From Gracilimonas sp. (GTDB taxonomy: Bacteria > Bacteroidota > Rhodothermia > Balneolales > Balneolaceae): 64,000 nucleotides of DNA. The first letter of the stretch is position 1, and the number at the start of each line of letters is the position of its first letter. Below the pieces are notes generated by a model. It did no database searches, was not told the origin of the DNA, and worked only from the letters and a program-made list of their open reading frames with translations. Shown in pieces: positions 37,566 through 44,866 of this stretch. Location: positions 820,894 to 884,893 of the forward strand of contig NZ_JAEPPI010000003.1 of the NCBI RefSeq assembly GCF_017641085.1, given 5' to 3'. Both the position numbers and the translations under genes were made by a program.

Positions 37566-38813
37566 TTACATTCCCGCAATAGCCTGCATCATAATGGCGC
37601 ACAAGTAAGCTCCATAAGTACCTAAAGCATAACCCAGAACGGCGAGTAATACACCAACCGGGGCTAACGCTGAATGGAAGGCCGAAGCTACAATAGGAGC
37701 AGATGCTGCTCCCCCTACGTTAGCCTGACTTCCAACGGCAACAAAGAAGAAAGGTGCTTTAATAAGCTTTCCAACCGTCAACAATACGGCCACATGAATC
37801 AGGATCCACACGGCACCGATTACAAAGAAACCGGGTGCATCCAGCATGGATGCAATGTTCATTTTCATACCTATTGTCATTACCAGGATGTACAGAAAAA
37901 GACTTCCCAGTTTAGAAGCTCCGGCCCCTTCAAGATTTCGAACTTTGGTGAACGACAGGATAAGTCCGCCGGTAGTAGCTACTACTACAATCCAAAAGAA
38001 GGAAGAGTTGAGGCTTAAATCAGCCAGAGCCGGCGCATTTTCATCGATCCAAGGAGCGATGGTGTCACCGGCAAGGTGACCAAGAGCTACGATCACGAAA
38101 GCCACGGCAATTATTTTAGTGAAATCCACCAGGGTTGGAACCCGGGCAATGTTGGCCTGATATTCAGCGATGTTGTGTTTTAGTTCATCAATAGCAGACG
38201 AGTCGGCTTTAAACCACTTATCCACCTGCTCGGAGATACCCGCACCGTAGAGCAGGAAAGCCATCCAGATGTTGGCTACGATAATATCCACAGTTACCAT
38301 AGCGCCGAAAAGATCGGTACTTGGCTCAAACACTTCCAGCATGGCGGTTTGGTTGGCACCACCGCCAATCCAGCTTCCGGCCACGGTTGCAAGTCCACGC
38401 CAAACGGCATCCGGTCCGGTTCCGCCAACAATTTCAGGACTGATGGTTCCCACAATAAGCAAGGCAATGGGGCCGCCAATCATAATACTTCCGGTTCCTG
38501 CCAAAAACATAATGACTGCTTTTGGTCCCAGGTTCATAATTCCTTTGAGATCTATGCTCAGGGTGAGCAGTACCAAACTTGCCGGCAGTAGATATCGGGA
38601 AGCTACATAATAGAGATTGGAATCGGCTTCAGAAACTACCCCAAAGGTAGTCAGCAGCGAAGGGATGAAGTAGCACAAGAGCAGCGAAGGCACAAACTTG
38701 TAGAATTTCTGCCATTTGGGATTATCACTGTGAGAGGTAATGAAAATTCCGGCCAGTATAGCCATCAAAAGTCCAAAGGTAACCGCATCGCTGGTGATTA
38801 GTGCTGAATCCAT
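37566..38813 (-). CDS. DUF819 family membrane transporter
   Basis: A 415-residue protein with about ten to twelve transmembrane helices of the DUF819 (YjcL) type. Motifs: ITSDAVTFGLLMAILAG at the start, LLPASLVLLTLSIDLKGI, TVAGSWIGGGANQTAMLEVF, and MTIGMKMN and GSQANVGGAASAPIVASAFH near the C-terminus. The duplicated glycine-rich motifs (GSWIGGGANQ, GSQANVGG) suggest an inverted-repeat transporter like the GltS/BASS families. The substrate is unknown. It is monocistronic, divergent from lysC. Confidence 0.9.
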   Translation of the reverse strand: MDSALITSDAVTFGLLMAILAGIFITSHSDNPKWQKFYKFVPSLLLCYFIPSLLTTFGVVSEADSNLYYVASRYLLPASLVLLTLSIDLKGIMNLGPKAVIMFLAGTGSIMIGGPIALLIVGTISPEIVGGTGPDAVWRGLATVAGSWIGGGANQTAMLEVFEPSTDLFGAMVTVDIIVANIWMAFLLYGAGISEQVDKWFKADSSAIDELKHNIAEYQANIARVPTLVDFTKIIAVAFVIVALGHLAGDTIAPWIDENAPALADLSLNSSFFWIVVVATTGGLILSFTKVRNLEGAGASKLGSLFLYILVMTIGMKMNIASMLDAPGFFVIGAVWILIHVAVLLTVGKLIKAPFFFVAVGSQANVGGAASAPIVASAFHSALAPVGVLLAVLGYALGTYGAYLCAIMMQAIAGM

Positions 38814-40338: not shown

Positions 40339-41016
40339 ATGAAAATTGCAGTTATTGGAACAGGAAAGACCGGTGGAAAAGTGGTGGAGCTTTTAGGAGA
40401 TGAACTATCCGAAGCTTTTGACTCATCGAATCCCCCCACCGTAGAGAAACTTCAAGCAGCTGATGCGGTTATCATCTTTGTACCGGGCGACGCGGTGCCT
40501 GATGTAATGGACACAGTGATTGAGGCCGGCATTCCGGCCGCATGGGGAAGTACCGGTTGTGAGTGGCCAAACGATTTGGAGGAGCAGGTAAAAGCCAAGA
40601 ATGCGAAATGGATTATGGCTTCCAATTTTAGCCTGGGAATGAATGTAATCCGCAAAAGCATCGAGGCTATTTCGGCGGGATCAAACATTTTGAAAGACCC
40701 GGAATTTCATATTCACGAAGTGCATCACGTTCATAAAAAAGATGCCCCCAGCGGAACGGCACTGTCCTGGAAGGAGTGGTTGGATAAGGAAGCGGAAGTA
40801 ACCTCAGCCCGTGAAGGTGATGTGAAAGGAATTCATGAACTGACCCTGAAAACAGAAACAGAAGAAATCACCCTAAAACATAAGGCCTTAGACCGTGCTT
40901 TATTTGCAGAAGGGGCGATTTGGGCCGCAAAGCAACTGGTAAACCATTCGAAGATGGAAGCAGGAATTCGTACCTTTGGGCAGTTATTTGATCAAGTAAT
41001 GGAGGAACAAAAATAA
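40339..41016 (+). CDS. dapB: 4-hydroxy-tetrahydrodipicolinate reductase
   Basis: Reduces HTPA to tetrahydrodipicolinate with NAD(P)H in the diaminopimelate pathway. At 225 residues it is shorter than the about 270 of E. coli, the Bacteroidota-like short form. The nucleotide site is VIGTGKTGGKV. The catalytic His-His motif and Lys are in HEVHHVHKKDAPSGTA (about 129-144), the family signature. The stop overlaps the start of dapA by one base (TAATG), so the two are coupled. Confidence 0.95.
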   Translation: MKIAVIGTGKTGGKVVELLGDELSEAFDSSNPPTVEKLQAADAVIIFVPGDAVPDVMDTVIEAGIPAAWGSTGCEWPNDLEEQVKAKNAKWIMASNFSLGMNVIRKSIEAISAGSNILKDPEFHIHEVHHVHKKDAPSGTALSWKEWLDKEAEVTSAREGDVKGIHELTLKTETEEITLKHKALDRALFAEGAIWAAKQLVNHSKMEAGIRTFGQLFDQVMEEQK

Positions 41017-42826: not shown

Positions 42827-44533
42827 TCAGACTGCCAGAGCTTTATTCGCAATTGCCAATCCTTTCACAAACGCCTGAATTACGGCTTCCAGGGTATCTG
42901 GGGATGCTCCCTTAGAAGTAAAGCGATGTCCTTCTTTCTCAAGGGTCAGGGTTACAATTACCAGAGAGTCGGTATCCGGACTCAGGATTTCCACTTCGTG
43001 ATTTATGACTTCAAGCGGAAGAAACCCATCCGTTTCGGATTTGATAGCGGTTAGAATGGCATCAATGGGTCCCACACCCTGATCAAGGGAAATGATCTCG
43101 TCTTTGTCTTCAATTTTCAACTTCACGGCTGCACTTACCAGTCCGTGTTTACGCATGGTAAGCTTGTAATCCACTACTTCAACCGGGTACTCGAGATCCG
43201 CATCCTCATTATAAACCAATGAGCGAAGTACCTTAATCTCTTCCTCTTTAAGGGTTTTCCCTTTTCGGTTGATGTTATTCACATACTCATCATACAGCTT
43301 GGTATGTCCCTCGTCCATATTGACGTTCTCAAAGCCTGTGTTACGTGATTGACCCCAGCTGTTCTTTTGCATGTCAATAAATCCGGACTCAATATATTGC
43401 TGAATGCGTTCGAGGTTTGGTGGGAGTACCGGAGAGGAGAGAGAGTATTTGGCCACGATATGTGAACTCTTGAGCCCGGTACCCGTGAGCACGAACAGGC
43501 ATTTCTTTCCTTTAAATTGATCCAGGTTGTTTTTGAAGGTGGCAAGCGGAATGGCACAAGCCGGTTCGGTGAAATAACCTTCCTCAACGGTCATTTCTTG
43601 CATCGATTCGAGCAATTCATTCTCGGTTGCGGTAAAGGCAAGTCCGTCCGTTTCCTCAATTCCGCGGAATACCTTGTAGAAGTCCAGCGGGTCGGCCACG
43701 GCCACGGCATCCGCCATGGTATTTACCTGTTCTTTGACGATTTTATCCTTCTTAAAAATCCCTTCCACCACCGGTGAACTTTGTTCGGGTTGAACTGCAA
43801 TAAAGCTTGGGATTTTTTCAATCATCCCGGCTGCCTTCATCTCTTTGTAGCCTTTGTAGATGGCAGCAAAATTGGTTCCGGCGCCAATGGGTACAAAGAT
43901 GTAATCAAATTCAGTATCACCCTGCTCGTACAGCTCATAGGAGAATGATTTTTGTCCTTCCTGACGGAAAACATAGTCCCCGGCAAGGTAGTAATTTCCG
44001 GATTTGGCAAACTCACGACACAGTTTCTCACATGCCATAAAATCACCTTTAATCTTGATGATAGTCGCGTCATAAATGGTAGCCTGGGCCAGTTTTACTT
44101 CAGGCGTTTTTTCCGGCACAAACACGAAACAAGGAATTTTGAAATAACAGGCATAGGCAGCCACTGATGCAGCCATATTTCCGGTAGAGGCCAGGCAAAT
44201 AGCATCAGCACCCAGCTCCAGGGCTTTTTGCACTTCTATATAACTTCCCCGGTCCTTAAAGCATCCGGTGGGATGTTCAAATTCAAGCTTGGCGTACAGT
44301 TCAGCATCATATCTCTCGGAAAGACGATCGAGCTTCTTCAGCGATGTATAATGGTTCTTGAGAGGATCCGGTAAAATCTCTTTCAGCGGATACTGAATGT
44401 GCTTTTCGGATTTGTTGTACTCAATATCCAGAACGCCTCCGCAATGCGTGCAGTAGGTGCTGGTTTCTCTCTCGTCATTTTCACGGCCGCACATAATGCA
44501 GCTCATGGTATATCCGGAATTGCTTGATTTCAT
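42827..44533 (-). CDS. thrC: Threonine synthase with C-terminal LeuA-type allosteric domain
   Basis: A PLP enzyme that makes threonine from phosphohomoserine. The order of domains is: an N-terminal zinc ribbon (C12, C15, C28, C31), a fold-type II PLP domain (about 45-400) with the Schiff-base Lys 93 in GCFKDRGS, LASTGNMAASVAAYA and IPIGAGTNFAA-like phosphate/PLP loops, then a C-terminal domain (about 430-565). That domain has the LeuA_dimer pattern (SAAVKLKIEDKDEI, LDQGVGPIDAIL, GASPDTLEAVIQAF), which in isopropylmalate and citramalate synthases binds leucine or isoleucine. The enzyme may thus be feedback-controlled by a branched-chain amino acid. The fusion is plain in one frame. Confidence 0.9.
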   Translation of the reverse strand: MKSSNSGYTMSCIMCGRENDERETSTYCTHCGGVLDIEYNKSEKHIQYPLKEILPDPLKNHYTSLKKLDRLSERYDAELYAKLEFEHPTGCFKDRGSYIEVQKALELGADAICLASTGNMAASVAAYACYFKIPCFVFVPEKTPEVKLAQATIYDATIIKIKGDFMACEKLCREFAKSGNYYLAGDYVFRQEGQKSFSYELYEQGDTEFDYIFVPIGAGTNFAAIYKGYKEMKAAGMIEKIPSFIAVQPEQSSPVVEGIFKKDKIVKEQVNTMADAVAVADPLDFYKVFRGIEETDGLAFTATENELLESMQEMTVEEGYFTEPACAIPLATFKNNLDQFKGKKCLFVLTGTGLKSSHIVAKYSLSSPVLPPNLERIQQYIESGFIDMQKNSWGQSRNTGFENVNMDEGHTKLYDEYVNNINRKGKTLKEEEIKVLRSLVYNEDADLEYPVEVVDYKLTMRKHGLVSAAVKLKIEDKDEIISLDQGVGPIDAILTAIKSETDGFLPLEVINHEVEILSPDTDSLVIVTLTLEKEGHRFTSKGASPDTLEAVIQAFVKGLAIANKALAV

Positions 44534-44620: not shown

Positions 44621-44866
44621 TTACAATGGAAGTATAATAATTTCTTCAAAATCCAGGTCCAGTTCACTTAAAACCGGAGCTGCAATTTCTTCAATTTCAT
44701 GCTCTTCGTAGTCATTCAATCCTTCCAGCTTCACATATAGAATATCGTTGTGTTCGTCGATGAAAAATTGTGCATCGGTCGACTCAAAACTGTCTCTCAG
44801 GGTTTGAATAAGGAATTCTACATCCTCAATAAAAGCTTTAATTTCGTCTTCGGTAGGTTCGCTCAT
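44621..44866 (-). CDS. Small acidic protein of unknown function
   Basis: An 81-residue, strongly acidic protein (many Glu and Asp) with an N-terminal helical segment and the central phrase FFIDEHNDILYVKLEGLNDYEE, likely an alpha-beta fold. No family is recognised. It lies between thrC and the divergent anmK gene; no strong ribosome-binding site is seen. Confidence 0.6.
   Translation of the reverse strand: MSEPTEDEIKAFIEDVEFLIQTLRDSFESTDAQFFIDEHNDILYVKLEGLNDYEEHEIEEIAAPVLSELDLDFEEIIILPL

Follow-up and report, generated by a model that had tools for sequence, protein, structure and literature searches.

The regulatory domain of isopropylmalate synthase (LeuA) and citramalate synthase (CimA), represented by Pfam family PF08502 and by structures from Mycobacterium tuberculosis LeuA (3fig) and Leptospira citramalate synthase (LiCMS; 3f6h), is carried in these enzymes on a Claisen-condensing TIM barrel. 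Here we describe a gene that places such a domain on a pyridoxal phosphate (PLP) enzyme of the threonine synthase (ThrC) superfamily, encoded in a stretch of 64,000 nucleotides from Gracilimonas sp. (Balneolales; contig NZ_JAEPPI010000003.1, positions 820,894 to 884,893), hereafter the window. The catalytic part resembles the short-type ThrCs of B. subtilis (6cgq) and Thermus (1v7c) in its fold type II PLP domain, FKDRG lysine, ASTGN loop, EGQK motif and about 30-35% identity, but the fusion lacks their Thr, Asn-Ser and GNxGN residues, falls outside their clade and has an extra C-terminal domain. That domain shares with LeuA and CimA the GxGPxDA motif and the Asp, Thr and Val positions of the LiCMS isoleucine pocket, whereas a pocket tyrosine has given way to an invariant histidine. 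Among the unfused homologues compared, the top sequence scores (up to 34% identity) belong to ThrC-like proteins of xanthine-dehydrogenase/aminohydrolase clusters, which also have a zinc-ribbon N-terminus but differ in their active-site loops and gene context and have no LeuA domain. Biosynthetic IlvA offers a parallel in design, being a fold-II PLP enzyme (PALP domain) with C-terminal amino-acid-sensing, ACT-like domains; its regulatory fold is unrelated to that of the fusion, however, and IlvA is a separate gene in Balneolales genomes that make isoleucine from threonine.

A literature search for the fusion found no paper describing it. We interpret the protein, with about even confidence, as an amino-acid-gated fold-type-II PLP enzyme of the ThrC superfamily distinct from the pathway threonine synthase and perhaps an ammonia-lyase-like elimination enzyme.

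A PLP domain and a LeuA-type domain in one frame

The gene is read from an ATG at 44533 to 42827 with no interruption in frame, and comprises the following features:

42827..44533, minus strand: ThrC-like PLP enzyme fused to a LeuA-type allosteric domain, a single open reading frame (ORF) of 568 aa
44402..44506, minus strand: N-terminal zinc-ribbon-like segment, residues 10-44 (Zn_Ribbon_TF, E 0.011, below cut-off)
43481..44350, minus strand: PALP catalytic domain, residues 62-351, with Schiff-base Lys93 (Pfam PF00291, E 6.9e-62)
42857..43228, minus strand: LeuA_dimer domain (PF08502), residues 436-559 (Pfam, E 1.8e-16)

An earlier reading made from the sequence alone (the sequence-only reading) had proposed that a threonine-synthase-like PLP domain and a LeuA-type domain share one frame, and the profile searches bear this out: both PALP and LeuA_dimer match, the latter above its cut-off with 60.6 bits against 24.9. 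Lys93 sits in PTGCFK93DRG, so that the PALP fold retains the FKDRG lysine of ThrC, and this residue and all three motifs quoted in that reading (GVGPIDAIL among them) are present in the translation. The best structural match of the PALP part found by Foldseek is B. subtilis ThrC (6cgq, 35% identity). An AlphaFold2 (AF2) model of the C-terminal 144 residues, with a mean confidence (pLDDT) of 84, shows a strand-strand-strand-helix repeat whose best Foldseek matches are M. tuberculosis LeuA (1sr9, 3fig) and the isoleucine-bound domain of Leptospira citramalate synthase (3f6h), in agreement with the fold anticipated from the sequence, and a profile built from the C-terminal domains of the fusions detects 3f6g by sequence (E 0.001). 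The zinc ribbon, proposed at the same time, fares less well and is only suggestive: across 21 aligned fusions C12, C28 and C31 never vary, but C15 does, and the Zn_Ribbon_TF match stays below its cut-off.

The union of a PLP enzyme and a LeuA-type domain in one chain is real and conserved, and an assembly artefact is excluded because the fusion recurs at full length in many genomes of the order that were assembled independently of one another. It is present in 45 Balneolales genomes of at least 90% completeness, the gene being cut at a contig end in two of them. Among 296 genomes drawn from the phylum, only members of this one order hold full-length fusions (55-95% identity), and the next best matches are PALP domains of no more than 35% identity. 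When 84,980 species genomes were scanned with narrow patterns, which distant fusions outside the order could escape, 32 loci were returned; 29 lie in genomes named Balneolales, Balneolaceae, Balneola, Gracilimonas, Fodinibius or Aliifodinibius, and the other three in one Rhodothermia bacterium (apparently of family f1) and two genomes labelled Bacteroidetes bacterium (one apparently of the same order, one unplaced). A search of viral contigs and plasmids found no fusion.

Active site, phylogeny and pathway context

The sequence-only reading took the enzyme for a threonine synthase at the branch point of threonine and isoleucine synthesis, and it is here that the comparison departs from it. In the alignment, every genuine ThrC compared (those of B. 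subtilis, Aquifex, M. tuberculosis, Thermus and Arabidopsis, two short ThrCs of Bacteroidota and four E. coli-type ThrCs of Balneolales) has a Thr after GN or GD, an Asn-Ser motif (NS-x-N) and a GNxGN loop, whereas all 31 fusions read GNM (M120), LAGD and G[AC]GTN at these three sites. The fusion retains the PLP lysine Lys93, a PLP glycine loop and, on the substrate side, one arginine (Arg190). We take the three replaced sites to include the substrate-phosphate contacts of Thermus ThrC (Thr88, Asn154, Ser155 and Asn188), with Arg160 corresponding to Arg190. Since the other residues that ThrCs share at the substrate-phosphate site are lost, the substrate is probably not O-phosphohomoserine; nonpolar residues have taken their place at the presumed phosphate site.

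Maximum-likelihood analysis groups the fusions as a monophyletic set (100/100) on a long branch, excluded from the short-ThrC clade (99/96). Their neighbours in the tree are ThrC-like paralogs of purine/hydantoin-type catabolic clusters, PRK08197-like proteins and threonine deaminase. The presence of the CapA2 structure 9k3c among the Foldseek matches would agree with a CapA-like cysteate synthase for sulfonolipids, but such a role is highly improbable: the NCBIfam CapA model matches a different, CBS-like gene of the genome (L003, 466 bits, under the cut-off of 600) and does not appear in the list of the 25 best models for the fusion, to which the archaeal cysteate synthase model gives 42 bits.

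The neighbouring branches hold some proteins of note in their own right. Zinc-ribbon ThrC-like proteins occur in Bacteroidota xanthine dehydrogenase/aminohydrolase clusters (L153-L161; cluster genes read by eye), some beside a YgeW-like carbamoyltransferase, where they perhaps stand in for the diaminopropionate ammonia-lyase YgeX. A second zinc-ribbon ThrC-like protein, of PRK08197 type, adjoins a LysR-like regulator at L148:5739-6926 and L149:5918-7123 (518 bits for the L149 copy), both in genomes without ThrB.

In the four relatives whose thrB neighbourhood was read (G250, G089, G026 and G302), a thrA (about 815 aa)-thrB-thrC operon encodes an E. coli-type ThrC of 428-439 aa, and the fusion is a gene separate from this operon; the ThrC of G250 is confirmed by Thr_synth_N in Pfam and 304 bits on the TIGR00260 thrC model. 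The window genome (completeness 98.4%) has four PALP genes, namely a Thr/Ser-dehydratase-like, a CBS/CysK-like, TrpB and the fusion, and no ThrB, ThrA fusion or E. coli-type ThrC was found in it. Its sole GHMP kinase reads as IspE, and an APH-type homoserine kinase in place of ThrB was considered and rejected, the two APH-family proteins examined matching fructosamine kinase and EcKL. Neither IlvD nor any HMGL-like protein was found there; the absence of the latter means that the genome has no LeuA or CimA, and the only LeuA_dimer it encodes is that of the fusion. With ThrB, IlvD and LeuA/CimA missing, the window genome has no visible source of O-phosphohomoserine and no isoleucine pathway to feed back on. 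More broadly, the 45 fusion-bearing genomes lack ThrB in 10 cases, IlvD in 14 and both in 9.

A sister species (G061) lacks the ilvA-thrABC cassette and keeps a fusion 91% identical to the window copy. Here the next gene, encoding a GNAT protein, follows ilvC after 9 bp, where G026 has ilvA-thrA-thrB-thrC over about 6 kb (L147:12414-13975, a Gracilimonas relative from which the cassette is cleanly absent, versus L146:10646-18137); such a gene content would be expected of a Thr/Ile auxotroph. The LeuA proteins examined in relatives from Balneola and Gracilimonas are themselves short (388 aa, L146:3473-4639; 385 aa, L147:5210-6367) and without a LeuA_dimer of their own, the only one in those genomes sitting on the ThrC-like fusion. 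Elsewhere in the order, long HMGL-type proteins look like CimA by eye.

Two rival explanations meet this evidence. That the fusion is a genuine second threonine synthase of the archaeal zinc-ribbon type, with Ile, Leu or Thr acting allosterically on it via the LeuA-type domain, is distinctly unlikely: it would be without a visible substrate source in the window genome, a canonical ThrC is present wherever the thrB neighbourhood was read, the signature residues are lost and the tree places the fusion elsewhere, and the sister species lost ilvA-thrABC yet kept it. That it makes threonine from MetX-made O-acetylhomoserine, its sensor protecting the methionine branch, would fit both the nonpolar replacements and the single homoserine dehydrogenase of the window genome, which lies next to MetX and MetY where ThrB is missing. 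We nevertheless regard this as quite improbable, since such an enzyme would be redundant in the many thrABC genomes and the sister species lost ilvA along with thrABC, as a Thr/Ile auxotroph would; moreover, we know of no precedent for a threonine synthase using O-acetylhomoserine.

The C-terminal domain and the preferred explanation

The isoleucine pocket of LiCMS is, we assume, formed by Y430, D431, L451, Y454, I458, T464, V468, P493 and Q495, a numbering with which the sequence of 3f6g agrees. The counterparts in the fusion are, in order, I/M/L490, D491, V509, H512, I516, T521, V525, P545 and T547, of which H512 is found in all 32 fusions, D491, T521 and V525 in 31 of 32 each and P545 in 29. 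As far as these residues can tell, an alpha-amino acid is a plausible ligand. Between related-species pairs, the proportions of nonsynonymous and synonymous change are 0.025-0.13 (pN) and 0.63-0.88 (pS), with the catalytic and regulatory parts alike; constraint is given as pN and pS only, because synonymous sites are near saturation and a dN/dS ratio would be unreliable. It is strong, and the same in genomes that lack threonine or branched-chain synthesis as in those that keep these pathways, which indicates that the fusion protein and its sensor domain matter even where neither is made.

The C-terminal domain could also be a ligand-free dimerisation module, kept for stability. Conservation of the pocket positions does not significantly exceed that of the remaining domain (p 0.09) and a histidine (H512) stands in place of the pocket tyrosine, but the counterparts of LiCMS D431, T464, V468 and P493 hardly vary within Balneolales, and constraint on the domain equals that on the catalytic part. 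We consider the idea unlikely, with an appreciable chance of being right.

The explanation that we prefer runs as follows. An enzyme of the threonine synthase superfamily would have given up its original role. The most likely functions of its LeuA-type domain are dimerisation and the binding of a free alpha-amino acid at the interface of the two subunits, and the bound amino acid may gate catalysis in the way known for this domain in isopropylmalate and citramalate synthase. The likeliest chemistry would be an ammonia-lyase-like elimination on an unphosphorylated amino acid.

Several points weigh against this explanation, beginning with the unexceptional conservation of the pocket and its lost tyrosine. 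The ammonia-lyase idea is a guess from the cluster context of distant relatives (at most 34% identity), and the phosphate contacts in Thermus ThrC are our assumption. Archaeal ThrCs of proven function lie outside the tree and archaeal zinc-ribbon ThrCs outside the motif comparison, while it is to archaeal zinc-ribbon threonine synthases that the fusion has its best NCBIfam matches, which stay below their cut-offs. A genuine threonine synthase would also account for the short ThrCs (30-35% identity) as top Foldseek matches, for the keeping of Lys93 and Arg190, and for the location of the gene, which adjoins the diaminopimelate (DAP)/lysine cluster in family f1 genomes and thrABC in Fodinibius-like genomes and so fits an aspartate-family role. 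Finally, the fusion passes TIGR00260, narrowly (172 versus 167.1 bits); the catabolic-cluster and PRK08197-like paralogs pass it too, genuine ThrCs score 304-323, and the model does not discriminate genuine ThrC from ThrC-like paralogs.

Neighbouring genes and significance

The fusion gene faces the DAP cluster in G000, G089, G042, G081 and G250. Directly upstream of it in the window, and co-oriented, lies a possible first gene of a two-gene unit:

44621..44866, minus strand: small acidic protein, 81 aa

This protein has no significant Pfam or NCBIfam match. It is conserved, at about 81 aa, in 108 of the 124 genomes of Balneolales. In the neighbourhoods that were read its gene is usually divergent to anmK, and the fusion either follows the small acidic ORF or is missing after it; G092 lacks the fusion and has the DAP cluster, the small ORF and anmK all in place. 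A dedicated partnership with the fusion is rejected on these grounds, the ORF being order-wide and occurring without the fusion, and it is a neighbour only. Within the aspartokinase-dapB-dapA-dapD cluster of the window, DapB (40339-41016, plus strand) is short at 225 aa and scores 98.9 bits on TIGR00036, under the cut-off of 122, yet is located with the other dap genes. A DUF819 membrane protein (37566-38813, minus strand) adjoins the cluster, and similar proteins lie beside dapB in G250 and G081.

Taken as a family, the fusions would represent an undescribed group of Balneolales PLP enzymes, derived from the ThrC superfamily, acting on another substrate, gated by an amino acid through the LeuA-type domain and independent of threonine and branched-chain synthesis, a proposal that we judge about evenly balanced between right and wrong. 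The curated thrC model labels the enzyme threonine synthase, and genome-based predictions could therefore score Balneolales auxotrophs as completing threonine synthesis. Species apparently unable to make branched-chain amino acids have kept a branched-chain-type sensor, which raises the question of what this sensor detects and controls, and the occurrence of a LeuA-type domain on a PLP enzyme shows that such a sensor can move between unrelated catalytic folds.
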